IMG/VR virus record: IMGVR_UViG_3300047564_003078
Location: 1 to 64,000 of that record
DNA: 64,000 bases
Origin: a virus
Direction: 5' to 3' (one strand)
The notes beneath the pieces are model-generated. The model was not told the origin of the DNA. It did no database searches and worked only from the letters and a program-made list of their open reading frames with translations. This document shows positions 39-47,342 of the stretch, one piece after another. The translations under genes and the position numbers were made by a program. How positions within the stretch are numbered: position 1 is the first letter of the stretch; the number at the start of each line of letters is the position of its first letter.

Positions 39-650
39 ATGAAACTAGCAATCTGTGTTCCTGCACGTGATACTGTTCATGCGGGATTTGCTAAAGCACT
101 GGCAAATCTCGCTGCACAGTTGCAGAAAGATGGCATAGATTACGAAATACTAATAAACTTAGGCAGTGTTATACCGCAACAGCGTAATACACTTGTGCAA
201 GAAGCACAACAAATCGATGCAACACACACGCTTTGGTTAGACAGTGATATGTATTTTCCAGCTAGTACAGTAAATCAATTGCTAAAACATAACAAGCCAA
301 TTGTTGCAGCTACTTATAGTACAAGGGTCAAACCTTTACGAAGCGTAGCGTTTGTTGACCGTGATGACCTAAATATCAGATTAACATCTAATGCTGGATT
401 GCACGAAGTATTTGGGGTCGGAATGGGCTGTATGCTGGTAGACATAGAAGTTTATAGATATGTTCAGCGTCCGTGGTTCCAGTACTTGTACAATCGAGAC
501 ACCCAAGATCTCAGCGGAGAAGATATTTGGTTTTGTCAATGTGCAAGAGATGCAGGCTATGAAATTTACGTTGATGCAGACCTAAGCAACAACGTAGCAC
601 ACTTTGGAACCAAAGCATTTTTAATAGGTGAAACCGATGACAGCATTTGA
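39..650 (+). CDS. GT-A-type glycosyltransferase-like protein
   Basis: Predicted cytoplasmic sugar transferase of 203 aa. The N-terminus (MKLAICVPARDTVH) starts a Rossmann-like GT-A fold, and LWLDSDMYFP (about residues 66-75) is the DxD motif that normally binds Mn and a nucleotide sugar. A second acidic patch, SGEDIWFC, fits the acceptor side. The stop overlaps the start of the giant repeat protein, whose last domain has a related DxD-like motif, so the two probably act together. Donor and acceptor cannot be inferred. Confidence 0.7.
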   Translation: MKLAICVPARDTVHAGFAKALANLAAQLQKDGIDYEILINLGSVIPQQRNTLVQEAQQIDATHTLWLDSDMYFPASTVNQLLKHNKPIVAATYSTRVKPLRSVAFVDRDDLNIRLTSNAGLHEVFGVGMGCMLVDIEVYRYVQRPWFQYLYNRDTQDLSGEDIWFCQCARDAGYEIYVDADLSNNVAHFGTKAFLIGETDDSI

Positions 651-3600
651 TATATTTGATCGTTTAGGACAAAAAACCTACACCGGTCAAGATATTCTTA
701 AAAATCATATCTTAAAAAGACATCCAATACATTACACAACTGACGTTGATGATTATTCACAAGTAGATCAATATGCAGATCAGCATGAATTTGTTTGGCT
801 TGTTGAAAAGGATTTTGAAGTTATAAGAAGTTTTCCTTGGTTTTTTGTTCCGGCAACAGAGGACAAAACCAGTGTACATTTATTTCCGTACATATACAAA
901 GCCAGCAAACGTATAAAGAGCTGGAAAAAAGTACAATTAGTACCTACTAAAAACAGAACAAATAAAAAAGTTACACAGAATCATATTGTGAATGTTTATG
1001 ACTTCTACAATGGCAAAGATAGCTTTGATATATTTTATCAAGGCAGTGAAACCGACGAACAGTATCTCAAACTACTAGAACGATTTAAAAATATAAGAAG
1101 CGTAGAAAGCTACTGGCAAGCACAAGAATTGTCAGAAACTGACATGTTCTGGTTAGTACCAAATGACATTGAAGTAAGTCCTATATTTAAATTTAGCTAC
1201 CAACCAGATGACTGGAGTCATAAATTCACGCACGTCTTTGTTAATGGAGATGATTGTAGAGATGGTATTGCATTGTTTCCAAAACAATATAATCCTACTG
1301 ACAAAGAATTAAGATATAGATACTACACAAATAAAAAAGAACTAAACATTGTAGCAAGTATTCCAAAAAAATATCCAATCTACAATTTTAAAAACTATCA
1401 AGAATACAAGTCTGTGCTGGATACTACAGACAGCGACTTGTTTTGGTTTGTTCCAGACGATGTGGAAGTTGCAAAGGATTTTGATTTTAGCACATACTTC
1501 GAACATAAAAATCAGTATGACAGAACAACCAACCACGAGTTTTTAAATGATGCTAACTATGACGGTATTGTACTGTTTAGTAAGCACAATCCTATTACTG
1601 AAAAAGAATTTGATCATAGATTTTATACAAATAAAAAACAATGGGAGGTGGTAGCAAGCCGGCCAAAAAAGTTTGATCAGTTTGTAGTTAATAACTATGC
1701 TGACTACAAACTGGCACTTGAGCGTAGCACTACTGAAATGTTTTTTGGTATACCCGACGATGTAGAGATTAATTCATCTTTTAAATTTGATACTTATTTT
1801 ACTCATCATAATCAGTATGACAGAAACATTACACATGTTTTTTTAAATGACAAAACCTATGATGGTGTAGTGTTGTTTAGTAAAAATATTCAATTAGCAG
1901 AACGTGAAGTAAACAACAGATTTTACGTGAAGAAAAAAGAATGGGAAATAGCAGCAAGCAAACCTAAACCATTTGACTTGTTTGATATCGACAGTTATCA
2001 AGATTATTTAGATGCAATTGCCAATAGCACCACACATTTGTTTTGGGCAAGCAGCAAAAATTTAAAAATCAACGATTTAGAAAAACTAGAAAATTTTTAT
2101 ATTAGTCATCACGAATTAGTAGACAGAAATCAAAATCATGTGTTTTTACATTATGCAAATGATACAGTTTATAAAAATGGCGTAATGCTGCTTAGTAAAA
2201 GTAAAAAGCTTACCGAAAAAGAAATACTGTATAGATTTCCGTTAGAACGCAAAGAATGGGAAATAGTTTTAAGTGGCCCTGTAGATTACAGTCAGTATAA
2301 CATCGAAACTTATGATGATTACCTTAGTGCTATGGAAAACAGCAAAACAGAATTGTTTTGGGCAACAACACACAACATTGATTTTACTATACCAAACATT
2401 TATTTTTCGCATGACAACGAATACGACAGAAAAAACAATCATGCCTTTGAGCATGTAGTAGATGGAAAAGTATTGTTTAATGGACTGTTTTTGTTGAGTA
2501 AACATAAACCACTAACACAACGAGAAATTGAACATAGACATATTATCGATGTAAAAGAATGGCCTATTGTAGGTTCTCACAAAACAGCATATGAAATATT
2601 TGATATAGAAACATATGAGCAGTATCTAGATGCTATCAAGACCAGTAATACTGAACTGTTTTGGATGTCTAGTCAAAATATAGATACAGCTGATTTTAAT
2701 TTCGATTTATATTTTTCACACGATAACAATTATGACAGAACACGTAATCATAGCTTTATTCATCGTGTAAACGGAAAAGATCACCGCAATGGAGTATTCT
2801 TATTAAGCAAACATGCTCCTGTAACTGAAAAAGAAATTGAACATAGATTTATTGTCAATGCTAAGGAATGGGATATTGTAGCAAGTGGTCCAGTTGAATA
2901 CGATAATTTTACTATTGACACATGGAACGATTATGTTGATGCTGTAAGACATTCGACTACAGAATTGTTTTGGGCAACATCTAACAACATAGACACAGAC
3001 GACTTTGACTTTAGCAGTGTTTATTTTACACATGACAACGAGTATGATAGAAAAATAAATCATTGTTTCTCTCATTTAGTAGATGGTGTAAAACATTACA
3101 ACGGTTTAATGTTACTAAGCAAGCATTCTCAACTGACTCCTCGTGAAGTTGAACATAGATTTCCTGTAAACAGAAAAGAATGGGATACAAATGCAAGTAA
3201 ACCGGTACAATATGATTTCTACAACATCGAAACATACAACGATTATATCAATGCATTAGATGATGTAGGAACCGAATTGTTTTGGGCTGCATCAAAAAAC
3301 ATAGAAGTTTACGACGAACTCGTAAAACAAATATATTTTACTCATGATAACGAGTATGATAGAAAAACCAATCATAGTTTTGTTCATCGTGTAGATGGCA
3401 AAGATTATCGCAATGGATTGTTTCTATTAAGCAAACATGCAATTGTAAGTCAAAAAGAAATAGAACACAGATTTATCGTTAATGCCAAGCAATGGAAAAC
3501 TGTAGGTAGTACAAATAAACAATATAATAAATTTACAATTAACAATTACGACGATTACATCCTTGCACTACAAGAATCAGATACAGAAATGTTTTGGGGA

Positions 3601-5130
3601 GTTCCCGATGATGTAATTGTAGATCCTAATTTTACATTTGATTTGTATTTTACTCATGACAACGAGTACGATCGCAAAACAACTCATGTGATGCTCAATG
3701 GAGAACATAGAGATGGTATTGTACTGTTTAGTAAACATGCACCTGTTACACAAAAAGAAGTTGAGAATAGATTTTACATAAACAAAAAAGATTGGGACAT
3801 TATAGCAAGTACACCAAAGCCGTATGAATTTTATAACATTGTAAGTTACAACGATTATCTCGAAGCTTTGGAAAATTCGCCTACTGAACTGTTTTGGGCA
3901 AGTACTCCTAACATTAAACTCAACAAAGACTTTGATGCTAATTTATATTTTAGTCATCATAACACATACGATCGTAGTATTAATCACACTTTTGTACATC
4001 GTGCCAACGGTGAAGATCATTACAATGGATTGTTCTTGTTGACAAAACGTGCTCCTCTAACAGAAAAAGAAATTGAGTATAGACTAATAGCAAAGCGTAA
4101 ATCATGGGATATAGTTGCAAGCGGTCCTGTAGAATACGAAAAGTTTATTGTAGACACATACGAAGATTACGAAACTGCAAGAAATTCCAGTGAGACTGAA
4201 ATGTTCTGGATGATACCTCCAGAAGTAAATGTTGATCCTAATTTTAAATTTGATCTATACTTTACTCACGATCAATGGTTTGAACGTAAAACAAATCATG
4301 TGTTTATGAACGGTAATGCGTGGGATGGCATTAGTCTAGTAAACAAAAAGTCTCTGATAACTGATCGTGAGATACGTATGCGTTTTCTTGCAAATAAAAA
4401 ACAATACAATATTGTTGCAAGTAACCCAACACTTTATGATATTGTGTTTATCAGCAAAGACGAAGAACATGCAGATATAAATTACAACAAACTTGTAGAA
4501 CGTTTTCCAAGAGCAAAACGTATACACGGAGTTGAAGGCATTCATGCTGCACACATTGCGGCAGCAAAACAGTGTAATACAGATATGATTTGGATTGTAG
4601 ATGCTGACGCTGAAATCATAGATAAATTTAATTTTGATTATTACGTTCCGGCATATGATCCTGATAGCAGAAAAACTGTTCACGTCTGGAAATCACAAAA
4701 CCCAATTAATGGATTGGTTTATGGATATGGGGCTGTAAAACTGTTGCCAAGAACGTTAACTTTAAATATGGATACAACCAAGCCTGATATGACCACAAGT
4801 ATCAGTCCGTTGTTTAAAACTATAAATCGTATCAGTAATGTTACACGGTTCAACACAGACGAGTTTAGTACTTGGCGTAGTGCATTTAGAGAATGCGTAA
4901 AACTTTCAAGTAAAATAATAAACGGTCAGCTTGATGAGGAAACTGAATTTAGATTGAATGTATGGTGTACTCGTGGTAAAGACAAACCGTTTGGACCTGC
5001 TGCAATCAGCGGTGCTAATCTCGGCAAAGAATACGGAGAAAAACACCGTGATTCTACGCAAGAGTTGCGTAGAATAAATGACTTTGATTGGTTAAGAGAA
5101 CAGTTTGATCAAAGTAAAAACAGTTTCTAA
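637..5130 (+). CDS. Giant tandem-repeat protein with degenerate GT-A-like repeats
   Basis: About 1,498 aa from the ATG at 637, which has AGG 8 nt upstream; a GTG at 628 is in frame. Residues about 250-1275 are ten tandem units of 100-105 aa. Each unit has an alternating Y..Y..A start, TE(L/M)FW, a YFTHDNEYDR-like block, NH.F, (D/N)G, (L/F)LSKH and KEIEHRF...KEWDIVAS. Two less regular units precede them. The last domain keeps WIVDADAEI where the repeats have VPDDVEV or ASKNIEV, so the repeats look like copies of a GT-A half-domain that lost its DxD. No signal peptide or membrane segment is seen. Function unknown; a scaffold or multivalent glycan-binding enzyme is an inference. Confidence 0.75.
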   Translation: MTAFDIFDRLGQKTYTGQDILKNHILKRHPIHYTTDVDDYSQVDQYADQHEFVWLVEKDFEVIRSFPWFFVPATEDKTSVHLFPYIYKASKRIKSWKKVQLVPTKNRTNKKVTQNHIVNVYDFYNGKDSFDIFYQGSETDEQYLKLLERFKNIRSVESYWQAQELSETDMFWLVPNDIEVSPIFKFSYQPDDWSHKFTHVFVNGDDCRDGIALFPKQYNPTDKELRYRYYTNKKELNIVASIPKKYPIYNFKNYQEYKSVLDTTDSDLFWFVPDDVEVAKDFDFSTYFEHKNQYDRTTNHEFLNDANYDGIVLFSKHNPITEKEFDHRFYTNKKQWEVVASRPKKFDQFVVNNYADYKLALERSTTEMFFGIPDDVEINSSFKFDTYFTHHNQYDRNITHVFLNDKTYDGVVLFSKNIQLAEREVNNRFYVKKKEWEIAASKPKPFDLFDIDSYQDYLDAIANSTTHLFWASSKNLKINDLEKLENFYISHHELVDRNQNHVFLHYANDTVYKNGVMLLSKSKKLTEKEILYRFPLERKEWEIVLSGPVDYSQYNIETYDDYLSAMENSKTELFWATTHNIDFTIPNIYFSHDNEYDRKNNHAFEHVVDGKVLFNGLFLLSKHKPLTQREIEHRHIIDVKEWPIVGSHKTAYEIFDIETYEQYLDAIKTSNTELFWMSSQNIDTADFNFDLYFSHDNNYDRTRNHSFIHRVNGKDHRNGVFLLSKHAPVTEKEIEHRFIVNAKEWDIVASGPVEYDNFTIDTWNDYVDAVRHSTTELFWATSNNIDTDDFDFSSVYFTHDNEYDRKINHCFSHLVDGVKHYNGLMLLSKHSQLTPREVEHRFPVNRKEWDTNASKPVQYDFYNIETYNDYINALDDVGTELFWAASKNIEVYDELVKQIYFTHDNEYDRKTNHSFVHRVDGKDYRNGLFLLSKHAIVSQKEIEHRFIVNAKQWKTVGSTNKQYNKFTINNYDDYILALQESDTEMFWGVPDDVIVDPNFTFDLYFTHDNEYDRKTTHVMLNGEHRDGIVLFSKHAPVTQKEVENRFYINKKDWDIIASTPKPYEFYNIVSYNDYLEALENSPTELFWASTPNIKLNKDFDANLYFSHHNTYDRSINHTFVHRANGEDHYNGLFLLTKRAPLTEKEIEYRLIAKRKSWDIVASGPVEYEKFIVDTYEDYETARNSSETEMFWMIPPEVNVDPNFKFDLYFTHDQWFERKTNHVFMNGNAWDGISLVNKKSLITDREIRMRFLANKKQYNIVASNPTLYDIVFISKDEEHADINYNKLVERFPRAKRIHGVEGIHAAHIAAAKQCNTDMIWIVDADAEIIDKFNFDYYVPAYDPDSRKTVHVWKSQNPINGLVYGYGAVKLLPRTLTLNMDTTKPDMTTSISPLFKTINRISNVTRFNTDEFSTWRSAFRECVKLSSKIINGQLDEETEFRLNVWCTRGKDKPFGPAAISGANLGKEYGEKHRDSTQELRRINDFDWLREQFDQSKNSF
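1381..4440 (+). repeat. Ten tandem about 300-bp coding repeats
   Basis: In-frame units within the giant gene. Some blocks are nearly identical at the DNA level, for example the CATGACAACGAGTATGATAG-like stretch near 3030, 3345 and 3657, which suggests recent unequal duplication. Two sub-types alternate: PDDVEV-type (units 1, 2, 8, 10) and SSKNI-type (units 3-7 and 9). Confidence 0.85.
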
Positions 5131-5526
5131 CTTTTTTTGATTGGTTTTACTTCTTAGAGTATTGGATAACCCATGATGTAACGGCTTTGGCCATTTGCCA
5201 AAGTTTACCCAGGCGTATCCGTCGTGTTCGCTATTAAGCTTTGGTATAAATTCATTTTCAACTACACATAGGTAAGTGTGAAAATAAAAATGATTATCGT
5301 TGCTTACAAACGTTTCTAAAGGAATTGTTTTTTTAATGTCAGGCAAAGATCCAATTTCTTCTTCAATTTCTCGTTTTAGGCCTTCCCAAGGAGTTTCTTT
5401 TTCCTCATTGGTTCCGCCTACTAATCCCCAAACATCATTTTGTTTACTTTGAGTACGATGTAATAATAAAAATCTATTGGTATCTAAGGTGTAAAATAAA
5501 GCACCACTACAAATTATTTTCTTCAT
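5092..5526 (-). CDS. NUDIX hydrolase
   Basis: 144 aa. The NUDIX box is complete: GG at about 38, then REIEEEIG at about 52-59, matching GX5EX7REUXEEXGU. It should hydrolyse a nucleoside diphosphate linked to X (nucleotide sugar, oxidised dNTP or capped nucleotide); the substrate cannot be assigned. It is convergent with the giant repeat gene and overlaps its last 39 bp, and lies just downstream of gp15 on the same strand. No late box is seen at its start. Confidence 0.85.
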   Translation of the reverse strand: MKKIICSGALFYTLDTNRFLLLHRTQSKQNDVWGLVGGTNEEKETPWEGLKREIEEEIGSLPDIKKTIPLETFVSNDNHFYFHTYLCVVENEFIPKLNSEHDGYAWVNFGKWPKPLHHGLSNTLRSKTNQKKLETVFTLIKLFS

Positions 5527-5534
5527 ACAAATAG

Positions 5535-7058
5535 TTATGCGTCTAAATACAACATCCAGGTGCCATGTGAATATTCACCTTCGTAGGATTGTATCCATTC
5601 TGTGCCTGTCCACTTGTATTGTGTTCCTGTTGTGAGATTGCTAATGTAAGTTATATCAGTTGCATCAGTTGCATCAAACACAACATGCCAACGAGATCCG
5701 TCCCATTCTACAATGTCACCGTATCCAGCCACAAAATCGTAACTGCCGTTAACCAATATACTGTGTTTCCATGCATCCGGGCCGTCATATGCAAATGTAT
5801 ATGGTGTTTCACCAACTGTCTGTCCTACATTTTCGCTTGGATTTAAATCGCCTAAGATCATCAAACGTAATCCGGGTGTTTTGTCATTTGTAGGATTGTA
5901 GGTTAGAGGATCTACAATTTTGTCAAGTGTACTCCAACTACTGGGATTTCTAGCAGGACCTTCTAGTACATTGTTTGTTGGCAATGTATCCATGTCCCAA
6001 TTAATAGAAATTTCAGTTTCATTTAGCGGATTAATTGTAAACGTTCCTATAACATAATTAGTAGAATCAGATTTTCTTAGTCTTATTTGACTTATACCTG
6101 CTTTGTAAGTGCCCGGATAGCTGTCAGTAATAATACGCCAACTTACAGTGCCGACAACATTTTTATCAATGATTTGTCCTGTTGTTGATGTAATGTACAC
6201 TCCATAATTTCTATATGTAGTACTCAATGTTGCTCTATTGTCGGATGTAGGAGAAACTGTCAATGAAGTATCAATATCAACATTGCCGTCTTGAACTGTA
6301 GTTGTGGTGCTGTTGCTAACTGGAAATTGTTCATCGCTATACGCACTAATTTCTGGATAACTTTCTCCTAGATTTATGGTGCCTATTTGTTCGTTAAAAA
6401 TACTTGTTATAACATTAGTAATTACACCTAGACGTTTTACTTTAGCTGGCGGAGAAATATAAATCGGTGTACTAAATGCTAGAGTAGCAATGTCTATTTC
6501 GCTTTCAACACCTACAGGAATACTTCTACTACTAAATTCAGTTCTTTCTAGATTGACTACACTTAAACTTGTCCAATCCACAAAATTGTCTGTGGTTTGA
6601 ATTTCCAAGCTTGGGTTGAACAACATTAAAATCTGTTCTAATATTTGAAGTTTTTGATCAGTGTTTGTTGTCCATATATCAACATTTACACTTAGTGTAT
6701 ATGGTGTAGGCATTAAACGTTCAACTGTATAATTTTTGCCTTGTGTATTTAGATATTCATTACCATCAGCATCAAATGCTCTTTCTCTAATATTAACTTT
6801 ACTTACATAACTACTATCGCTGGTTCTATTTCTATCCATTTCTAAACCGGTAACATAAACAGCCATGCGTGGAGCACTAGGTAGTTTATTTTCAGAATTA
6901 TCTCTCATAATACTGGCAACTTGTCTTGACAGATCTCCGTAAGTCACTGGCACTTGACGCAAACTTCCTTCGCCGTCTTTGTAGCTAAAATTGCTCATCA
7001 TTCTAACAATCTGAGTAATATATCTTCGTATTTGACCGTCATAAAAGTGAAGACTCAT
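5535..7058 (-). CDS. 15: Tail sheath stabilizer/completion protein, gp15-like
   Basis: The N-terminal half matches T4 gp15: FYDGQIRRYITQIVRMMSNF, then RQVPVTYGD, then MPTPYTLSVNVDIWT and QILEQILMLFNP. In T4, gp15 forms the hexameric ring at the top of the tail that holds the sheath and joins the neck. At 507 aa it is nearly twice T4 gp15 (272 aa). The extra C-terminal part is Thr/Ser-rich and ends in Trp-repeats (VEWDGSRWHV, YKWTGTEWIQ) like those of tail-fibre-type decoration modules. SD GGAGAAAG precedes ATG 7058. It runs leftward with gp14 and a homing endonuclease. Confidence 0.85.
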   Translation of the reverse strand: MSLHFYDGQIRRYITQIVRMMSNFSYKDGEGSLRQVPVTYGDLSRQVASIMRDNSENKLPSAPRMAVYVTGLEMDRNRTSDSSYVSKVNIRERAFDADGNEYLNTQGKNYTVERLMPTPYTLSVNVDIWTTNTDQKLQILEQILMLFNPSLEIQTTDNFVDWTSLSVVNLERTEFSSRSIPVGVESEIDIATLAFSTPIYISPPAKVKRLGVITNVITSIFNEQIGTINLGESYPEISAYSDEQFPVSNSTTTTVQDGNVDIDTSLTVSPTSDNRATLSTTYRNYGVYITSTTGQIIDKNVVGTVSWRIITDSYPGTYKAGISQIRLRKSDSTNYVIGTFTINPLNETEISINWDMDTLPTNNVLEGPARNPSSWSTLDKIVDPLTYNPTNDKTPGLRLMILGDLNPSENVGQTVGETPYTFAYDGPDAWKHSILVNGSYDFVAGYGDIVEWDGSRWHVVFDATDATDITYISNLTTGTQYKWTGTEWIQSYEGEYSHGTWMLYLDA

Positions 7059-7579
7059 TATTCTTTCTCCATCCAGACTCGTTTTCCATCAACTAGTTTC
7101 CAAGTTTTATTTTTAAGCATTTTTTTAAGTTTTTCTTGCACTGGTTTTAATTTCTCTTTTTGCTCTTCTGACCAAGTCCATCCGGAAGTTTTTTTAGTTT
7201 TTGTAAAAGTATCTTTGCCAAGTTCTCTTCTTCGTTGATGTGCTTTTATTTGTGCCTCACTCATGCGTTTTTTACTTTCGTTTGAGTGAAGTTTATTTCC
7301 GCCACCTTCTCTCAAATTATAACCGTTTTCGATCGAATTAAATTTTTTTATATAAAAATCTTCTAGGTAGTTTAATTCATCTATCGACGACGCAAACACA
7401 ATTACTTCCCAATCAAACGCATCCACGCCATATTTTCTTATAGCGTTATGAAAATGATATGTTTTTTTAGTATGTCGTGCATTAGAAATATGCTCGAGTC
7501 GTCGTTGATTAGGATCTTGCACAGATTGCCCGATATACGTCATACCCGATTCTTTATGTGTCCACTTATAGATATGCAT
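7058..7579 (-). CDS. GIY-YIG homing endonuclease
   Basis: 173 aa. The N-terminal GIY-YIG nuclease appears as IYKWTH...YIGQS (residues 3-19), followed by the conserved Arg helix (RRLEH) and an ENGYNLREGG block with the metal-binding Glu. The Lys/Arg-rich C-terminus (NESKKRMSEAQ, HQRRREL) resembles NUMOD3-type DNA-binding repeats. It sits exactly between gp14 and gp15 with 1-nt overlaps at each end, the classic site of a free-standing phage homing endonuclease. It probably cleaves the equivalent gp14-gp15 junction of related phages. Confidence 0.9.
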   Translation of the reverse strand: MHIYKWTHKESGMTYIGQSVQDPNQRRLEHISNARHTKKTYHFHNAIRKYGVDAFDWEVIVFASSIDELNYLEDFYIKKFNSIENGYNLREGGGNKLHSNESKKRMSEAQIKAHQRRRELGKDTFTKTKKTSGWTWSEEQKEKLKPVQEKLKKMLKNKTWKLVDGKRVWMEKE

Positions 7580-10153: not shown

Positions 10154-13100
10154 ATGGCTTTAGTATCACCAGGTGTACAGGTTAATGTAATCGACGAGAG
10201 TTTTTACACTCCAGCCGAGCCAGGTACCACACCAATTATATTTGTAGCAACAAAAGAAAATAAAACAAACCCAGGCGGTACAGGTATTGCTCCTGGTACA
10301 TTAAAATCAAATGCTGGTAAAGTATACCTAATGAGTTCACAGCGTGAGTTAGCTGAAACCTTTGGTGATCCAACATTTTACACAGATGCAAACAACAATC
10401 CGATACATGGTGGCGAGCAAAACGAATACGGCTTGCAAGCTGCTTACAGTTTCCTTGGTGTAGCAAATAGAGCATACGTAGTTCGTGCAGATGTTGACCT
10501 GGCAGCACTTACAGCCAGTGCAGAAGAAACTGCCGGTAAGCCTACAGATAACTCATATTGGTTTGATACAAATGATTCGTTATATGGTATCTTTGAGTGG
10601 AATGGTGCAGCCGCAACTACAACAAACGGACAAAGCTTTTCAAACAAAGTTCCTACTGTAATTACAGATACTACTAAAGTTGTTAACTATACAGGCGGCG
10701 ATTATACCCCAAAGGGCAGCGTAGGTGCACTAGGTGATTATGCACTTGTCGCAGTAACAAACGTAAATCGTTTATGGTACAAGTCAGCAGGATATGGCAC
10801 CAATCATACAACAACCAAAGGTACATGGGTGCCAGTCGGTAGTGCAAACTGGAAAGCAAGTCATGCATTTGTAACTGGTACAGCAGCTAACCCATCTATC
10901 ACAGCAGGACATTCTATTATATTCAGCTTAACTAGCGATAGTAGTGGTACACAGTATGAAGTAATTGCAACTGGTACTACACTTGCAAGCCTAGTAAGCG
11001 ATATCAACGGTACATCAGCATTGGTTACAGCAGGTATTACTGCACAGGTAAAAAATAGCAGACTAGCTCTTTATTACAGCGGTAGTGCAGGCGATGTTGT
11101 TGAAATTTATGGTACAGATGCTCTATTTACAGCAATCGGTATTGCTCAAGATGAATACTTTGCACCAGAAGTAACAATTGCACCGCATACCAGTGTTCCT
11201 TCATATAAGACTAACGATACAAACCCAAGACCTACTGGTAGTATTTGGGTTAAGACAACTACTCCTAATCTTGGAGCAAATTGGTCTGTTAAAAATTATT
11301 CAGCAAGCACTGCATCGTGGACAACTGTAAATGCACCATTGTATTCAACTGGTAACAGTGCAATATACGGTATTGACAGCACAGGCGGTGGTGCCAACAT
11401 TAGAGAAGGTTCACTGTTTGTACAGACAAACGTAGGTGAAGATTCTGAACCACTTGCAAACTTCAAAATTTATCGTAAAAATGCAAACGGTGCAACAACT
11501 ATTACCAGCAGTAAAATTATTTCAAGCTCATTCCCAAGTGGATCGTATTCATTTACTATCAGCGAGAGTTTAAGCGGTCAAGCAGCAATGGATACTGCAA
11601 AAACTATTTCGTTTACAGCAACAGGTGCTACAAGTGATGCAGAACTTATTGCAAATGCAATAAACGCAGCAGGGTTCACAAACGTAACTGCAAGCGTAGA
11701 TAGTCAAAACAGACTTGTAATTTCACATGCACTTGGCGGCGACATGAGAATTAACGATGCTGCAAATCAAATATTTGATAATATATATGAAGTTTTTGAT
11801 GCAACCGATCCTACTTCAACTGTTAACTTATACGAAAATCCTGCATTGGCAAACAACTACATTGCAAGTCTTTGGAAAGTGCTAACATACACTGCAAAGG
11901 ATGGCGAACCAACAACTGTTCCAGCTCAAGGTGCTCTATGGTATAGCAGTGTAGTAGACGAAGTTGACATGCTGTATCACAACGGTACTACTTGGGTAGG
12001 TTATAGAGACAGTGCAACTGGTTTCCCAAACACTGATCCAAATGGTCCAATTGTTGCAAACAGCGAACCAACCTTACAGTCAGATGGTTCTGCACTTCAA
12101 AATGGCGACATTTGGGTAAGCACTGCTGACATCGAAAATTATCCTACAATTTATCGTTACAACGGCTTAACAAGCAAGTTTGTGTTACTGGATAAAACAG
12201 ACCAAACAACTGAAAACGGTGTGCTATTTGCAGATGCACGTTACAATACAGCAGGTGCAAACAGTGATACAGCAGGTTCTATTGTAGACTTGCTAGAAAG
12301 CAACTATCTTGATCCAGATGCTCCAGATCCTGCACTGTATCCAAAAGGTATGCTATTGTGGAATCTACGCAGAAGTGGTTTCAATGTAAAGCGTTTCGAA
12401 AGAAACTGGATTGACGTAAACGATTTAAATACTCGCTTTGGTGATGAGTCAATGGCTGGTTACAAAGCAAATCGTTGGGTAACTGAAAGTGCTAATGAAG
12501 TTGACGGTTCTGGTAGCTTTGGACGTAAAGCACAGCGTAAGGTTGTTGTACAAGCTCTACAATCATTACTAAACAGCAATCAAGATATTCGCGACGATGA
12601 AACAAGAATTTTCAACTTGATGGCAACACCTGGTTATCCAGAACTTATCGGTGAAATGATTACCCTAAACAATGACAGAGGCTTAACAGCATTTATCGTA
12701 GGCGATAGCCCAATGAGACTACAGCCAAATACAACTGCAATTAGCAACTGGGCAACAAACGTAAATCTAGCTGTTGAAGACAACGATCTAGGTTTAGTTA
12801 GCAGAGATGAATATCTTGGTGTATACTATCCATCAGGTTTCAGCAGTGACAATGCAGGTAACAATATTGTTGTGCCAGCAAGTCACATGGCACTACGTAC
12901 TATTGCACTTAACGACCAAGTTGCATATCCATGGTTTGCACCAGCAGGTACAAGACGTGGCGGTGTAACTAATGCAACTGCAAGTGGCTATATTAGTTCA
13001 GAAGGCGAATTTGTAAGTGTTGCACTTAACGAAGGTCAACGTGATACTCTATACCAAAACAATGTAAACCCAATTACATTCCTAAATGGTGCAGGACTAG

Positions 13101-13462
13101 TAGTATTTGGTCAAAAGACTCGTGCAAGAAATGCAAGTGCTCTTGACAGAATTAACGTTGCAAGACTGGTAATTTATCTACGCAGTCAACTTAAAACACT
13201 TGCTAAGCCTTACATCTTTGAACCAAACGATAAAATCACACGTGATGAAATCAAACAACAGGTTGAAAGCTTAATGGTTGAGCTAATTGGTCTAAGAGCA
13301 ATTTATGACTACTTGGTAGTTTGTGATGAAACCAATAATACACCGAGCAGAATCGATCGCAACGAACTTTATGTAGATATTGCTATCGAACCAGTGAAGG
13401 CTGTAGAATTTATTTACATTCCGCTACGCCTTAAAAACACAGGAGAAATCGCAGGTTTATAA
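10154..13462 (+). CDS. 18: Tail sheath protein gp18
   Basis: 1,102 aa, against 659 in T4. The N-terminus VSPGVQVNVIDES and the C-terminal part (RIFNLMATPGYPEL, LYQNNVNPITFLNGAG, LRSQLKTLAKPYIFEPND) are hallmark gp18 segments of the contractile sheath. The extra 400 or so residues in the middle (about 130-650) are Thr/Ser/Gly-rich, with repeated short blocks such as PTGSIWVKT, GALWYSS and NGDIWVSTADI, and probably form surface insertions on the sheath. Strong SD (GAGGAGA) precedes the ATG. High expression as a late gene is expected. Confidence 0.95.
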   Translation: MALVSPGVQVNVIDESFYTPAEPGTTPIIFVATKENKTNPGGTGIAPGTLKSNAGKVYLMSSQRELAETFGDPTFYTDANNNPIHGGEQNEYGLQAAYSFLGVANRAYVVRADVDLAALTASAEETAGKPTDNSYWFDTNDSLYGIFEWNGAAATTTNGQSFSNKVPTVITDTTKVVNYTGGDYTPKGSVGALGDYALVAVTNVNRLWYKSAGYGTNHTTTKGTWVPVGSANWKASHAFVTGTAANPSITAGHSIIFSLTSDSSGTQYEVIATGTTLASLVSDINGTSALVTAGITAQVKNSRLALYYSGSAGDVVEIYGTDALFTAIGIAQDEYFAPEVTIAPHTSVPSYKTNDTNPRPTGSIWVKTTTPNLGANWSVKNYSASTASWTTVNAPLYSTGNSAIYGIDSTGGGANIREGSLFVQTNVGEDSEPLANFKIYRKNANGATTITSSKIISSSFPSGSYSFTISESLSGQAAMDTAKTISFTATGATSDAELIANAINAAGFTNVTASVDSQNRLVISHALGGDMRINDAANQIFDNIYEVFDATDPTSTVNLYENPALANNYIASLWKVLTYTAKDGEPTTVPAQGALWYSSVVDEVDMLYHNGTTWVGYRDSATGFPNTDPNGPIVANSEPTLQSDGSALQNGDIWVSTADIENYPTIYRYNGLTSKFVLLDKTDQTTENGVLFADARYNTAGANSDTAGSIVDLLESNYLDPDAPDPALYPKGMLLWNLRRSGFNVKRFERNWIDVNDLNTRFGDESMAGYKANRWVTESANEVDGSGSFGRKAQRKVVVQALQSLLNSNQDIRDDETRIFNLMATPGYPELIGEMITLNNDRGLTAFIVGDSPMRLQPNTTAISNWATNVNLAVEDNDLGLVSRDEYLGVYYPSGFSSDNAGNNIVVPASHMALRTIALNDQVAYPWFAPAGTRRGGVTNATASGYISSEGEFVSVALNEGQRDTLYQNNVNPITFLNGAGLVVFGQKTRARNASALDRINVARLVIYLRSQLKTLAKPYIFEPNDKITRDEIKQQVESLMVELIGLRAIYDYLVVCDETNNTPSRIDRNELYVDIAIEPVKAVEFIYIPLRLKNTGEIAGL

Positions 13463-26803: not shown

Positions 26804-27577
26804 ATGAAAACAATAGTATTAGTTTCAGGCGGCTTTGACCCTTTACACAGCGGACATGTTTCTTATTTTGAAGAAGCTAAAAAATTAGGTGACGAACTAT
26901 GGGTTGGTGTAAATTCTGACGCATGGTTAGTTAGAAAAAAAGGCAGACCATTTATGCCTTTTGCAGAGAGAACAAACATTATTCGAAATCTTAGAATGGT
27001 TGATCAAGTTTTAGGTTTTGAAGATGATGAAATCGGCAGCAGTAATCATTGTATAGAAAAAATTCTTGAGTTAACAGGAATGGACACAAAGATAATTGTA
27101 GCCAATGGCGGCGACAGAAATCCAGGAAATATACCTGAAGTAATCAAATACGGAAATCATCCAAGGGTAGAATTTGCATGGAGCGTAGGCGGCGATGACA
27201 AAAAGAATTCTAGTAGTTGGATTCTAGAAGAATGGAAAAATCCAAAGACAGTGCGTAACTGGGGTTGGTATAGAGTGCTCGACGACAAGCCGGGCTATAA
27301 AGTAAAAGAACTAGTTATCGAACCTGGAAAGAGTCTTTCAATGCAAAGACATTTTTTAAGATCTGAACACTGGTATGTTCTTAAAGGCAAATGCGTTTTA
27401 GAAACAGAATACAATAATATCGGTCAAAAAATTACATTGTCAGAATTAAATTCGGGCTACATAATAGAAAATAAAGTATGGCACAAGGCCTATAATTGCA
27501 CAGATGAATTATGTCACATTTTAGAAGTGCAATACGGCGAAGAATGTGTGGAGAGTGATATTGAACGTAGAAGTTAA
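26804..27577 (+). CDS. Cytidylyltransferase-cupin fusion (sugar nucleotide synthesis)
   Basis: 257 aa. Residues 1-135 are a TagD/RfaE-type nucleotidyltransferase: VSGGFDPLHSGHVSYFEEAK contains the HxGH motif, and FAERTNIIRNLRMVDQV follows. Residues about 145-257 are a cupin like the C-terminus of type II phosphomannose isomerase (WGWYRVLDD, MQRHFLRSEHWYVLKG, YGEECVESDIERR). It would activate a phospho-sugar with CTP and isomerise or bind a sugar phosphate. Late box close to the ATG. Confidence 0.85.
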   Translation: MKTIVLVSGGFDPLHSGHVSYFEEAKKLGDELWVGVNSDAWLVRKKGRPFMPFAERTNIIRNLRMVDQVLGFEDDEIGSSNHCIEKILELTGMDTKIIVANGGDRNPGNIPEVIKYGNHPRVEFAWSVGGDDKKNSSSWILEEWKNPKTVRNWGWYRVLDDKPGYKVKELVIEPGKSLSMQRHFLRSEHWYVLKGKCVLETEYNNIGQKITLSELNSGYIIENKVWHKAYNCTDELCHILEVQYGEECVESDIERRS

Positions 27578-36505: not shown

Positions 36506-37248
36506 AAATAACAATCATTTCAACTTTTGGTCCAGCTCACTATAAAACTTACGGCAGATATTTTGTCGAAAGCCTAGAGAAATTTTTAGATAATCGTGTT
36601 GATGTTGTTCTATATACAGACACACCATTGACTTTATTTAAGCCAAATTTTAGCAACAGAATCTTAAACCAGTGTTCTCCTAATTTAGTAGAATTTAAAA
36701 AACGCAACAGCGACAAAGTTATACCTACTGGAACCAAAGGATGGATAAGAGATGCAGTAAGATTTAGTCATAAAAGTTACTGCATAATACATGCAAGCAG
36801 AACAATCGAAACTGATTTGCTTATTTGGTTAGACGCCGATACAGAAGTTATTGCTCCTATCACTCACCAATATCTAAGCGAACAATTAGATTTAGATTAT
36901 TTTGTGAGTTATTTAGGTAGACCCAATAGATATAGTGAAACTGGTTGGTTATGTTTTAATTTAAGGAATAAGTGGTCAAAAACGTTTTTTGATCGTTGGG
37001 AATGGTATTATAATACAAATGAAATTTATAACTTGCCTGCTCAACTAGATTGTCACGTATTTGACGCTGTAAAGGAAGAAATGGAATCATTGGGTAAAAT
37101 TAAAGCTCAAAATATAAGTCCACCAGATTTAAGCTCTCAGCATTTTGATAGAAAATTTATAGGAAAAATAACTCATTACAAGGGAGACAAAAAAGAAAAC
37201 AGAGATCAAAATTTAAAAATTGCAAAACTGCGGGCTAGAAAAAAATGA
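36502..37248 (+). CDS. GT-A glycosyltransferase
   Basis: 248 aa. ISTFGPAHYKTYGRYFVESL and LLIWLDADTEVIAP (DxD). Paralog of the leftward gene 30155-30973. Coupled at both ends by 4-nt overlaps, so genes 35747-38902 are one translationally coupled operon. Confidence 0.75.
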   Translation: MKITIISTFGPAHYKTYGRYFVESLEKFLDNRVDVVLYTDTPLTLFKPNFSNRILNQCSPNLVEFKKRNSDKVIPTGTKGWIRDAVRFSHKSYCIIHASRTIETDLLIWLDADTEVIAPITHQYLSEQLDLDYFVSYLGRPNRYSETGWLCFNLRNKWSKTFFDRWEWYYNTNEIYNLPAQLDCHVFDAVKEEMESLGKIKAQNISPPDLSSQHFDRKFIGKITHYKGDKKENRDQNLKIAKLRARKK

Positions 37249-38111
37249 AAATAGTATTAACAGGCCACAAAGGTTTTATCGGTAGTCATTATTTAGATTA
37301 TATAAAAGACCGAGTCGAAGTAGAATCAGTTTACGGGTTTGATAAAGACTCGGGCGAAGATCTGTGCAATACAAGAACTGCTTACGAAAGTCCGGATTGC
37401 GATGTACTGGTACATATGGCTGCAACCAATGGTACAAAACTGTTTTATGAAATTCCAACTGAAGTTGCAACCAACAATACACTGCCTACTTTCAATCTAG
37501 TACACAGATATCAAAATACCAATACTAAGATTGTGTTTACAAGTACTTGCGAGATTTTTAATACTACTGTAGATAGAAATCTACACAGTGTCCCCACTGA
37601 CGAATCTGTACCAATAATGTTTGAAGATATAACTAATCCTAGATGGAGTTACAGTCTTCCAAAAGCATTAGGTGAAAACTTAGTTGCCAATTGTGGTGCA
37701 CCTTGGCTTATCATTAGATATTTTAATATCTATGGTCCAAGACAACGAGATCACTTTATCAGTGAATTTGTTGAACGTGTAAAGAACGGCGAATATTATA
37801 TTAAAGGCAACGATACTAGAAGTTTCTGCTACATTGATGATGCTGTTGTTATGACACATAATCTTGTCCAACATCATAATGGTTACATTGTAAACGTAGG
37901 TCATCAAGAAGAAATTGAAATAAGTACTGTAGCAAAAACAATTATGAATATTATGGGTGTAGATCCAGATCGGTTAGAAATCTTACCAGGGCTTGCAGGA
38001 AGTGCTAAACGCAGATGTCCTGATACTAGTTTAGTTCGTATGCTTACTGGATTTAAAGATTACACGCCGTTGGAATTAGGACTTAAAAAAACAATAGAAA
38101 GTCTAATATGA
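37245..38111 (+). CDS. NAD-dependent sugar epimerase/dehydratase (SDR)
   Basis: 288 aa. NAD-binding VLTGHKGFIGSH (GxxGxxG), catalytic WSYSLPKALGE (YxxxK), Thr/Ser in FTSTCE, and the nucleotide-sugar region FNIYGPRQRDHFISEFV. Extended SDR of the UDP-sugar 4-epimerase/decarboxylase type. With the following dehydrogenase it could make UDP-uronic acid-derived sugars. Confidence 0.85.
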   Translation: MKIVLTGHKGFIGSHYLDYIKDRVEVESVYGFDKDSGEDLCNTRTAYESPDCDVLVHMAATNGTKLFYEIPTEVATNNTLPTFNLVHRYQNTNTKIVFTSTCEIFNTTVDRNLHSVPTDESVPIMFEDITNPRWSYSLPKALGENLVANCGAPWLIIRYFNIYGPRQRDHFISEFVERVKNGEYYIKGNDTRSFCYIDDAVVMTHNLVQHHNGYIVNVGHQEEIEISTVAKTIMNIMGVDPDRLEILPGLAGSAKRRCPDTSLVRMLTGFKDYTPLELGLKKTIESLI

Positions 38112-38902
38112 AATTAGGTATAGTAGGGTTAGGTGCTGTAGGAAGTGCAAACAAACAAGGGTTTGAATATCTTGGTCACGAAGTAAGTGTACACGACATC
38201 AAATTGCCCACACTAATAACTGATGTACTAAACACCGAAATAGTATTTATTTGTGTTCCAACTCCTCAAGCAGCAGATGGTAGTTGCAATACAAGTATAA
38301 TCGAAAGTGTAATACAAGAATTACAAGACCACACATACAAGGGTATTGTAGCTATACGTAGTACCGTAGTTCCTGGTTTTACACAACGAATGATAGATAC
38401 ATATAAAAATCTAACTATTTGTTTTGTTCCTGAATTTTTAAGAGAACGTTGTGCTGCTGACGATTTTATAAACAATCACAAACTACTTGCTATTGGAACA
38501 CATGATATTTGGGTGTATAGAAAACTTGTAAAAGCTCATGGCAACTTACCAGAGAATACAGAACATCTTACGCCCAGTGAAGCAGAGGTGCTAAAATATT
38601 ACAATAACGTATATGCAGCTCTACGTGTTACCTTTGCAAATGTTATGTACGAAATCTGTGATAAACTAGATTGCGATTACACAACTATTAAAAATGCTTA
38701 TATTAAAACAGGAAAAGCAGTTGACATGTATCTTGATGTGAGTCCTGGGCTAAGAGGTTACGGCGGAATGTGTTTGCCAAAAGATACACAAGCTATTGCT
38801 GCATTGTTAAATCAACTGAACTTGGACTTTGATCTAATACAAAGTATAAACAATGATAATAACAAACTTAAAAAAACAGTGTTTAACGGAATGAGAGAAT
38901 GA
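38108..38902 (+). CDS. UDP-glucose/GDP-mannose dehydrogenase-like, short form
   Basis: 264 aa. NAD-binding GIVGLGAVGSA, IRSTVVPGF, the Glu/Asn helix KYYNNVYAALRVTFAN and the catalytic Cys in YGGMCLPKDTQA are present. The usual C-terminal UDP-binding domain (full enzymes are about 390-440 aa) is missing, and the family's central dimer helix is the end of the protein. Possibly active on a different sugar or dependent on a host partner. Confidence 0.8.
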   Translation: MKLGIVGLGAVGSANKQGFEYLGHEVSVHDIKLPTLITDVLNTEIVFICVPTPQAADGSCNTSIIESVIQELQDHTYKGIVAIRSTVVPGFTQRMIDTYKNLTICFVPEFLRERCAADDFINNHKLLAIGTHDIWVYRKLVKAHGNLPENTEHLTPSEAEVLKYYNNVYAALRVTFANVMYEICDKLDCDYTTIKNAYIKTGKAVDMYLDVSPGLRGYGGMCLPKDTQAIAALLNQLNLDFDLIQSINNDNNKLKKTVFNGMRE

Positions 38903-39498: not shown

Positions 39499-39782
39499 TG
39501 TTAATAGACCGTCCTGATTTAGTTGAACTGATTGGTGAGTCATTGATATATGAACAAGCCAACAGTGTGACATATGCACGTTTTAGAGATGAACCAAAAA
39601 AAAGTTTATATGCAGGACGTTGGATAATCGGCGGCAGTGCCGAGGAGATTGCTGTAGCACAAGGTTATTTGAGTTATGATAGTTGGAAAGAATTATTCAG
39701 TTTAGCAGACAAAAATCCTACTCTTAGAAAACAACTTGACAAAACTCTTGACATATATTATCTTATAAAAAATGGAAAATAA
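39498..39782 (+). CDS. Conserved small protein, unknown
   Basis: 94 aa. ATG 39498 overlaps the preceding stop (TAATG), so the longer in-frame start at 39420 inside the FkbM gene is not needed. Sequence MLIDRPDLVELIGESLIYEQ is helical. Position in a coupled chain between the methyltransferase and KdsA suggests a glycan-pathway accessory. No motif recognised. Confidence 0.6.
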   Translation: MLIDRPDLVELIGESLIYEQANSVTYARFRDEPKKSLYAGRWIIGGSAEEIAVAQGYLSYDSWKELFSLADKNPTLRKQLDKTLDIYYLIKNGK

Positions 39783-39783
39783 A

Positions 39784-40575
39784 ATGAAAATTATTGCAGG
39801 CCCATGCCAGCACGAAACTCTAGAACAGAGTTTAGAAATTGCTCAAGAATGCAAACGTGTATGTGAAAAATACGGCGTTGAATATTATTTCAAGGCCAGC
39901 TATGATAAAGCAAACCGTACAAGTATGTCAGGTAAGCGAGGACTAGGTCTCGAAAAAACCATGTATGACTTCAGAAGCCTAAAAGAACAATTAGGAGTAA
40001 ATACACTAACAGACGTACACGATATAAACCAAGTAACTTATATCAATACAGTTTGGGGAGATTCAGTTGACGTTTATCAGATCCCTGCTTTTCTTTGTCG
40101 CCAAACAGATCTTATTAGAGCTTGTGTGGCAACAGGCAAAACGGTTAATATTAAAAAAGGACAGTTTCTTGCACCGTGGGATGTCGCGGGTATTCTTTCG
40201 AAGATCGAAGGAGCCAAAGAAGTTTGGATAACAGAGAGAGGAACTAGCTTTGGATATAATGCCTTGGTTGTTGATTTCACCGGCCTTAACTATATGCTCG
40301 ATAATTTTAGTGTACCTATTGTACTCGACGCCACGCACAGTGTACAAAAACCAGGCGGCCGAGGAACTAGTAGCGATGGCAATCGTTCTTATGTTCCTGG
40401 CTTGGCTCGTGCAGCTAGTGCTCTAGGCGTAACCAACTTCTTCCTAGAAGTACACCCTGATCCGGACAACGCACCCAGCGATGGTCCTAATATGTTACAT
40501 TTAAAAGACTTTGAAGATGTTGTAAAACAAATTAAAGTAGTCGGTGATGCAGCAAGAGGATACACTTGGCTATGA
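39784..40575 (+). CDS. kdsA: KDO-8-phosphate synthase KdsA
   Basis: 263 aa from ATG 39784 (GGA 8 nt upstream; ATG 39772 also in frame). Condenses arabinose-5-phosphate with PEP. IIAGPCQHE, FKASYDKANRTSM, QIPAFLCRQTDLI, NIKKGQFLAPWD, ERGTSFGYNALVVDF, DATHSVQKPGG and HPDPDNAPSDGP are all conserved. The Cys in AGPC places it in the metal-dependent class. Its stop overlaps the kdsB start. Confidence 0.95.
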   Translation: MKIIAGPCQHETLEQSLEIAQECKRVCEKYGVEYYFKASYDKANRTSMSGKRGLGLEKTMYDFRSLKEQLGVNTLTDVHDINQVTYINTVWGDSVDVYQIPAFLCRQTDLIRACVATGKTVNIKKGQFLAPWDVAGILSKIEGAKEVWITERGTSFGYNALVVDFTGLNYMLDNFSVPIVLDATHSVQKPGGRGTSSDGNRSYVPGLARAASALGVTNFFLEVHPDPDNAPSDGPNMLHLKDFEDVVKQIKVVGDAARGYTWL

Positions 40576-45262: not shown

Positions 45263-45825
45263 AATATAGAATATTACTAGTAGCATTGGAAGCAGAACTT
45301 CCTTATAAACTTGCACCTAAAAATTATAAAGTAATTTACACAGGTGTAGGAAAAGTAAACGCAGCATTTGAAGCCACTAGAGCTATTGCAGAAGCACACA
45401 GTTTGGGGTTCCATCCTGAAGTTTATAACTACGGCACTGTTGGATCATGTAAACCCGATCTTACAGGCATGCACCGTATTACAAGATTTGTGCAGCGTGA
45501 CATGAATGCAGAACCGCAAGCACCAAGAGGTGTAACTCCATTTGAAGCAGGGCTACCCTATTTGGACTTTTCACTGGATATGACTCATGGTCTTACGCTA
45601 GGCACAGGCGATCAGTTTGTACACGAATTAGAACCGTGGCTGGTAAACAACAGCATTGATGTAGTTGACATGGAAGCATATGCTATTGCTCATGTGTGTA
45701 AACGCATGAATGCACAATTCACTTGCTACAAGTATATCACCGATTATGTAGGTACACCGCATCAAGCAGACACTTGGCAACAGAATGTAGCAAATGGTGT
45801 AGGGGAAATTTTAAAAGTATTATGA
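45259..45825 (+). CDS. MTA/SAH nucleosidase-like (PNP_UDP family)
   Basis: 188 aa. ILLVALEAELPYK, the GVGKVNA phosphate/nucleoside-type loop, VVDMEAYAIAHVCK (purine-nucleoside Glu/Met signature) and YKYITDYVG (catalytic Asp) fit the nucleoside phosphorylase/hydrolase family. It would remove by-products of SAM use or salvage bases. Translationally coupled to the carbamoyltransferase. Confidence 0.8.
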   Translation: MKYRILLVALEAELPYKLAPKNYKVIYTGVGKVNAAFEATRAIAEAHSLGFHPEVYNYGTVGSCKPDLTGMHRITRFVQRDMNAEPQAPRGVTPFEAGLPYLDFSLDMTHGLTLGTGDQFVHELEPWLVNNSIDVVDMEAYAIAHVCKRMNAQFTCYKYITDYVGTPHQADTWQQNVANGVGEILKVL

Positions 45826-47342
45826 TTACTTGGGGAATAAGTGCCAACAGCCACGATGCTGCTCTAGCAGTGTACAAACACGAACATGTGGGTATTGATC
45901 TCAAACTGATGTTTGCAAGTCACAGCGAACGTTACAGTGGAATTAAAAACGACCCCCATCTAAATACTGCATTAATAGATGCAGCAAAACAACACGGAGA
46001 ACCAGATGAAGTTGTTTGGTATGAACAACCTTTACTCAAAACTATTAGACAGTTTAGAGCAGGCCAAGGAATTCGGTTACGCGAAAACAATGTTAAACGT
46101 TATCTTAAATCTCATGGGATACACGCTCCTATTAGGTATGTTGATCATCATCTTGCCCATGCTGCTGCCGGTTTTTATACTAGTGGGTTTACAGAAGCTA
46201 CTGTCGCATGTATCGACAGTATTGGAGAGTTCGAAACCCTTACCATCTGGGAAGGCAAAGACCGAGAACTCAAACGTATATATTCACAATCCTATCCCCA
46301 TTCGCTGGGACTCTGGTATAGTGCGTTCACGCAAAGACTAGGGTTAAAACCGCAAGAGGACGAATATATTCTTATGGGTATGGCAGCCTATGGCGACCCT
46401 CTAAAGTACATGAACGAAATACTTGAAGAGTTTTTTTACCCTATAGAAAAAGAAAATCTCAAAGACATATTCTTTCCTAAACCTAGAATCAAACTGCGTC
46501 ACAATTTACACAGGGGATGTCTATGGTGGCGGCCAGAACTCAATAGCCCCCAAGATATAATGGACATAGCAGCGGCTGTTCAAGCAATATATGCGTACTT
46601 ATTGAAATACATCAGCAACTGGGCTAGATGGAAATCATCCTCGGGTAACCTTGTTCTAATGGGAGGGTGTGCTTTAAATTGTGCTGCAAACAGCGGCATA
46701 TACAAAGATTGGAATCAAGTTTGGATAATGCCCAATCCGGGCGATGCCGGGTCAGCTATCGGAGCACCACTAGCCCATTACAAACAACACGTTGAATGGC
46801 CGGGTCCCTATCTAGGTCACAACATAGAAGGAGATTATCCTGTTGAAGATATTATCCGAGAACTGCTTACCACAGGTATCTGCGGTGTTGCTAGTGGCCC
46901 AGCTGAGTTTGGCCCTCGTGCTCTTGGTCATCGTAGTTTATTGGCTGACCCAAGAGGTGTGGACATCAAGGATCGGGTCAACCGCATCAAGCAACGTCAG
47001 CAGTTTAGACCATTTGCCCCCGCAGTACTTGAAGAACATGCTGCAACCTATTTCGATGGCCCAGCAGGACCCTACATGCAATACACTGCTGTTTGCACAG
47101 ACCCTGGACTACCTGCAATCACGCACGGGGACGGCACCAGTAGGGTACAGACAGTTTCTCGAGATCAAAGCCCGGGCTTTAGACGTTTGCTAGAACGCTG
47201 GTACGAGGAAACTGGATGCCCTATACTGTTAAATACCAGTCTTAACATCAAGGGTCAACCAATTGTTAACACTGTAGAGGATGCTATAGAGTTTGAAAAA
47301 CATTACGGTGTAAAAGTATGCTTGGCTGCTGCGAAAAAGTAA
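45822..47342 (+). CDS. Carbamoyltransferase, NodU/CmcH family
   Basis: 506 aa from ATG 45822 (ATGA overlap). N-terminal Kae1-like domain: ITWGISANSHDAALAV and YVDHHLAHAAAGF (metal-binding His), MGMAAYGDP, LVLMGGCALNCAANS. C-terminal YrdC-like signature GPAEFGPRALGHRSLLADPR and ILLNTSLN. Transfers carbamoyl from carbamoyl-phosphate via carbamoyl-AMP to a hydroxyl. The acceptor may be a glycan or a modified base; neighbours do not decide. More GC-rich than its surroundings. Confidence 0.92.
   Translation: MITWGISANSHDAALAVYKHEHVGIDLKLMFASHSERYSGIKNDPHLNTALIDAAKQHGEPDEVVWYEQPLLKTIRQFRAGQGIRLRENNVKRYLKSHGIHAPIRYVDHHLAHAAAGFYTSGFTEATVACIDSIGEFETLTIWEGKDRELKRIYSQSYPHSLGLWYSAFTQRLGLKPQEDEYILMGMAAYGDPLKYMNEILEEFFYPIEKENLKDIFFPKPRIKLRHNLHRGCLWWRPELNSPQDIMDIAAAVQAIYAYLLKYISNWARWKSSSGNLVLMGGCALNCAANSGIYKDWNQVWIMPNPGDAGSAIGAPLAHYKQHVEWPGPYLGHNIEGDYPVEDIIRELLTTGICGVASGPAEFGPRALGHRSLLADPRGVDIKDRVNRIKQRQQFRPFAPAVLEEHAATYFDGPAGPYMQYTAVCTDPGLPAITHGDGTSRVQTVSRDQSPGFRRLLERWYEETGCPILLNTSLNIKGQPIVNTVEDAIEFEKHYGVKVCLAAAKK

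Follow-up and report, generated by a model that had tools for sequence, protein, structure and literature searches.

The window, a stretch of 64,000 nucleotides from an uncultured virus record (IMGVR_UViG_3300047564_003078), carries a giant gene whose product is predicted to end in one live GT-A glycosyltransferase domain (CT), preceded by twelve shortened and catalytically dead copies of the same core (u0 to u11). We are highly confident of this anatomy and of the origin of the array. That the enzyme copy gave rise to the non-catalytic ones, as proposed in a sequence-only reading of the same DNA, is supported by profile homology with controls, by the shared order of predicted secondary-structure elements and by the loss of DxD from every unit, in addition to the full-length stand-alone enzyme found in many phages and some bacteria and to graded unit numbers from 0 to 16.

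The array lies in a single open frame (628-5130, plus strand), which encodes 1500 residues if translation starts at GTG 628 or 1497 residues from ATG 637. The latter, already chosen as the start in the sequence-only reading, appears likelier because AGGTGA stands just upstream. An HMM built only from units of the window found 11 units in the frame, plus a match at the centre of CT (about 1e-6), and together with hhalign it bore out the earlier partition into two divergent leading copies, ten units of 100-105 residues and a final copy (Table 1). The units of the window are pairwise 28-60% identical in protein. At the DNA level their identity is 44-66%, with a best 60-nt stretch of 85% and a longest exact match of 21 nt, which indicates that the copies are old; this comparison rules out recently homogenised repeats, and the nearly identical DNA blocks described earlier did not hold up. 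No transmembrane stretch and no other recognisable domain, including a trimerisation or fibre domain, was found in the giant protein. Searches with the whole protein returned no Pfam or PHROGs family at E≤1, leaving the array unmatched, and no useful match in a PDB sequence search; a PDB profile match to mitochondrial transcription factor A (E 0.03) was judged to be due to chance.

Table 1. Features of the giant glycosyltransferase gene and of other genes in the window
Feature	Position	Strand	Remarks
Small stand-alone GT-A-type glycosyltransferase-like protein	39..650	+	Anp1-like, phrog_1574; overlaps start of giant gene; synteny conserved
Giant glycosyltransferase gene	637..5130	+	u0, u1, ten regular degenerate GT-A units, CT; alternative start GTG 628
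u0, very divergent leading copy	about 715..996 (limits approximate)	+	hhalign against CT; modelled strands and helices
u1, long unit (125 aa)	997..1371	+	N-terminal strand-helix of enzyme domain still kept
u2-u11, ten regular units (100-105 aa)	1372..4434	+	starts at 1372, 1672, 1972, 2287, 2590, 2899, 3211, 3523, 3823, 4135
CT, GT-A glycosyltransferase domain (predicted)	4435..5127	+	motifs VDxDA, GIHxAH, DMTTSIS, FREC, GAxxGxxxG
NUDIX hydrolase	5092..5526	-	conserved convergent neighbour
gp15-like tail sheath stabiliser	5535..7058	-	conserved neighbour
GIY-YIG endonuclease, probably a homing endonuclease	7058-7579	-	between gp15-like and neck-like genes
Tail sheath protein (1102 aa)	10154-13462	+	flagellin-hook IN motif ahead of C-terminal sheath domain; apparently unusually long
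Sugar-precursor genes	26804-27577, 37245-38902, 39772-40575, 45723-47342		cytidylyltransferase fused to mannose-6-phosphate isomerase-type cupin, epimerase, UDP-glucose dehydrogenase, DAHP/KDO8P-type synthase, Nol-like carbamoyltransferase

Comparison of a profile of 68 CTs against a profile of 186 units by hhalign gave a probability of 98.2% and an E-value of 4e-14, with the DxD strand lying within the 61 aligned columns, compared to a maximum probability of 14.3% among 100 column-shuffled controls. The very divergent u0 aligned to CT with a probability of 81% (shuffled maximum 2.6%), a weaker support than for the other units. In u1, the strand and helix that open the enzyme domain are still present; u2-u11 have lost them.

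The AlphaFold model of u10-u11-CT has a pLDDT of 93.1 and a pTM of 0.83. Foldseek search of this model against the PDB revealed 114 matches at E≤1e-3, the best 50 of which are all GT-A enzymes, and the matches include K4 chondroitin polymerase, WrtF, ArnC and GalNAc-Ts. Against predicted viral structures, two uncharacterised phage proteins matched with E of about 1e-27, and the remaining matches were mostly glycosyltransferases. By its predicted structure, CT is thus a GT-A fold glycosyltransferase; the Pfam family Glycos_transf_2 (PF00535, GT2) scores 14.6 bits against it, under the curated cut-off of 23.3. Each modelled unit follows the succession strand-helix-strand-strand-helix-strands-helix-long strand, as does the centre of CT, which possesses an extra N-terminal strand-helix and C-terminal helices beyond this core. 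Structure prediction had been set beforehand as the refuting test of a fold shared between the repeats and GT-A enzymes; the units-only model (u0-u2, pLDDT 89.5) gave no PDB match at E≤1e-3 and found mainly GT-A enzymes, weakly, led by the capsid glycosyltransferase of PBCV-1 (best E 0.016), an outcome that did not refute the shared fold. The TM-scores of multi-domain models were low (0.2-0.5) in all Foldseek searches, probably because the alignments spanned several domains, three in the CT model.

The two kinds of copy are conserved in different ways. In 68 diverse CTs, both Asp residues of DxD are present in 100%, and GIHxAH, DMTTSIS, FREC, GAxxGxxxG and other motifs are almost or fully invariant. 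By contrast, the first Asp position is occupied by Asp in none of the 186 units, and neither does any unit have both, in line with the earlier remark that only the final copy of the giant protein keeps the motif. The units have a conserved residue set of their own, namely H55 (98%), G65 (99%), L68 (99%), E79 (99%), R83 (91%), K89 (92%) and S96 (97%), and their dN/dS in close pairs is mostly 0-0.12, similar to that of CT. Both units and CT are evidently under strong purifying selection. As the DxD is gone, the residue set is their own and dN/dS is like that of CT, the units are, judged by sequence, dead as enzymes yet selected as protein; the near-invariant polar residues H55, E79, R83, K89 and S96, together with the low dN/dS, argue that they are maintained. 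The wide variation of unit number among relatives might suggest that the units are functionless copies accumulated neutrally, a reading already disfavoured and very improbable in view of the dN/dS, equal to that of the enzyme domain, and of residues kept at 91-99% over 186 units.

Relatives of CT occur at no fewer than 597 loci in IMG/VR, from uncultured phages. Bacterial assemblies add 11 loci, several of them in Bdellovibrionia and Oligoflexia. Two bacterial proteins have the CT domain fused to a radical-SAM protein (L163:3747-5708) and to GT2 domains (L165:4920-8651), respectively. A search of 50,697 phage records, a set that may lack those closest to the window, found no match to the family. 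The sequence-only reading knew of no such architecture in T4-like phages, a statement that stands for these phage records and fails for uncultured phages, where the architecture is common. The repeat number in related phages, which it had suggested surveying, ranges from 0 to 16. In a census restricted to complete proteins with non-identical CTs, 39 proteins have 0 units, and proteins with 1, 2, 3, 4, 5 and 6 units number 4, 3, 11, 5, 23 and 4, followed by 7 (2 proteins), 8 (3), 9 (6), 10 (1), 11 (9) and 16 units (3).

Several comparisons capture the growth of the array, whose origin would be repeated in-frame tandem duplication followed by retention through selection. In two near-identical phages, L174 and L180, corresponding units share 87-100% identity and one array has exactly one whole unit more, and in L167 the three adjacent units u5-u7 are 83-85% alike, a recent triplication. 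Between two 16-unit phages, positional counterparts are 72-100% identical, compared to at most 65% within their own arrays. In a tree of units, where the short sequences leave many forks unresolved, the first and the last units cluster mostly by position across phages, and one clade holds 38 interior units, variable in number. From this tree, end units are evidently orthologous by position for the most part, and it is the interior units that expand. Units lacking a CT occur only in truncated contigs or in ORFs directly ahead of a unit-CT ORF. One such array is split into two ORFs of 8 units and of 4 units plus CT (L202:272-2992 and the next ORF), perhaps through a frameshift or an assembly error, and two records (L210, L235) have a separate four-unit ORF ahead of the unit-CT ORF. 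Proteins with two CTs (L091, L103, L142, L146) were rejected as intermediates because their first domain resembles LP299, a larger paralog, a likeness seen clearly in L157 and L160. An apparently shorter array by tblastn coordinates (L001) is really the identical sequence on a truncated contig.

Genomic context falls into two types. In the window and in all arrays of more than seven units, the order is S74 tail fibre, small glycosyltransferase, units-CT, NUDIX(-), gp15(-) and neck(-), followed as far as each contig reaches; the contig of the window begins after the fibre gene. The small glycosyltransferase is a separate gene, agreeing with the earlier proposal of a stand-alone enzyme beside the array; its product scores 24.2 bits against Anp1 (PF03452), under the cut-off of 28.8, and the ortholog in L002 scores 37.0, above it. 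Complete S74 frames in this context span 2,720-3,943 residues. In five records (L194, L196, L222, L226, L234), giant S74-type fibres of about 3,600-3,940 residues lie just upstream of the array genes. In the second context, with 0-7 units, the gene adjoins LP299, radical-SAM, SGNH-like and methyltransferase-like genes, named by similarity and inspection. Six loci (L003, L074, L084, L092, L099, L123) have dense clusters of radical-SAM-like, SGNH-like and methyltransferase-like genes with the CT enzyme, often with LP299. T4-like structural genes are present in the window phage. Its terminase has its nearest counterparts in Pseudomonas jumbo phages, PA5oct among them (54%), and does not support a close kinship with pelagiphages.

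We propose that the giant protein is a soluble, cytoplasmic phage glycosyltransferase, in which CT would be the sole catalytic module, a metal-dependent GT-A enzyme acting via its DxD. The dead copies would make up an elongated arm and keep a large acceptor, either a glycan or a glycoprotein, in place for repeated modification by CT, with the product of the small glycosyltransferase gene as a partner enzyme. Since hundreds of related viruses carry 0-16 copies, a role as docking arm is the probable reason why the broken copies persist. The most likely acceptor would be the neighbouring giant S74-type tail fibre, a proposal that rests on the synteny and on the known glycosylation of virions in other phages, namely mycobacteriophages (reviewed in PMC12619734). 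In few-unit or zero-unit relatives the acceptor may differ, because the neighbours there are radical-SAM genes rather than fibres. Favoured by the position of long arrays between the S74 fibre with the small glycosyltransferase and the NUDIX-gp15-neck genes, and by the sugar-precursor genes of the phage, this mechanism is the most likely of the readings, and taken as a whole its chance of being right is somewhat below even.

The main rival places the same activity at the host surface, where the enzyme would decorate a surface polysaccharide during infection while the units hold the chain, in order to block superinfection or to keep progeny off debris. The LPS-type sugar genes of the window phage fit this idea, as do the bacterial fusions of CT with GT2 domains or with a radical-SAM protein. 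Moreover, the pelagimyophage host recognition cluster, which lies between VrlC and the neck gene gp14, contains many glycosyltransferases that its authors interpret as LPS modifiers (PMC7029224). However, the giant protein has neither a membrane segment nor another recognisable domain, and the strictly conserved arrangement beside fibre and neck genes suits virion assembly at least as well, so that we consider host-surface modification improbable on balance while taking it seriously.

The location within the structural region, and a long, modular array whose length varies as in fibre proteins, could instead point to a component of the particle, namely a glycan-binding fibre with CT as its lectin-like or enzymatic tip. 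Such a role is unlikely given the fully invariant catalytic set of CT, the relatives without units, which are small enzymes in biosynthetic-looking clusters, and the failure to find a trimerisation or fibre domain.

Unit number does not obviously track fibre length in the seven complete fibres (3,930 and 3,943 residues with 16 units, 3,603 with 11, 3,924 with 9, 2,720 with 8, and 3,621 and 3,577 with 5), which counts against the docking mechanism and discards fibre length as a quantity measured by unit number. It also weakens a reading in which the array merely oligomerises or sets a length, with no ligand contact and with the GT-A homology incidental to its present role. The unit-specific and best conserved E79, R83 and K89 could be unit-unit contacts in such a scaffold, and model confidence is high for neighbouring units, but each unit keeps its own identity between relatives, beyond the needs of a plain spacer; a pure scaffold seems, if anything, slightly less probable than a virion component. 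Extending the docking mechanism, the family might represent a new class of multi-seat glycosyltransferase, in which a live GT-A enzyme carries a tunable arm, where as many as 16 dead cores, each conserved in its own right, would have switched from binding a nucleotide sugar to binding one segment each of a giant acceptor, with gain and loss of units setting specificity or reach. This extension is speculative and probably not correct in full.

CT shares its predicted fold, the DxD-bearing strand and the core order with GT2/GT27-type GT-A enzymes, including K4 chondroitin polymerase (2z86), WrtF (9omm), ArnC (9b77) and GalNAc-Ts, but differs from them in belonging to no recognisable sequence family. 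To our knowledge, the number of GT-A domains in a chain of GT2/GT27-type enzymes is one or two, and none has an array of shortened dead copies. The best PDB matches of the units-only model are also viral, namely the capsid-glycosylating enzyme of PBCV-1 (2p6w, a GT-A glycosyltransferase by its title) and mimivirus R699 (9dyt), both weak at E 0.016 and above; as the PBCV-1 chain has about 200 residues, it holds no tandem array. The pelagimyophage host recognition cluster likewise combines tail fibres, glycosyltransferases and radical-SAM cassettes by the neck gene, and a tandem glycosyltransferase array is absent from the covered passages of its description (PMC7029224). The two uncharacterised structural matches from uncultured Caudovirales phage, deposited in UniProt as A0A6J5LK21 (804 aa) and A0A6J5L5L5 (1076 aa), almost certainly belong to the array family by their predicted structures. 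The family is common in uncultured large phages, with no Pfam or PHROG model recognising it, and if the giant tail fibre is the acceptor, this would suggest that large phages of aquatic habitats have receptor-binding proteins that are glycosylated. A limited literature search found no architecture in which as many as 16 minimal dead GT-A cores precede one live copy. Dead enzyme copies usually occur singly, as in CHSY3-CHPF and LH3, where one dead GT-A domain stands beside a live one for assembly or substrate handling. Compared to this single partner domain, the array family has a minimal GT-A core turned into a repeat unit, selected and expanded to as many as 16 copies, and its stages from 0 to 16 units suggest a route from an enzyme fold to a repeat protein. 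Altogether, the kind of enzyme is already known, and what appears to be new is the array of dead GT-A cores before one live copy.
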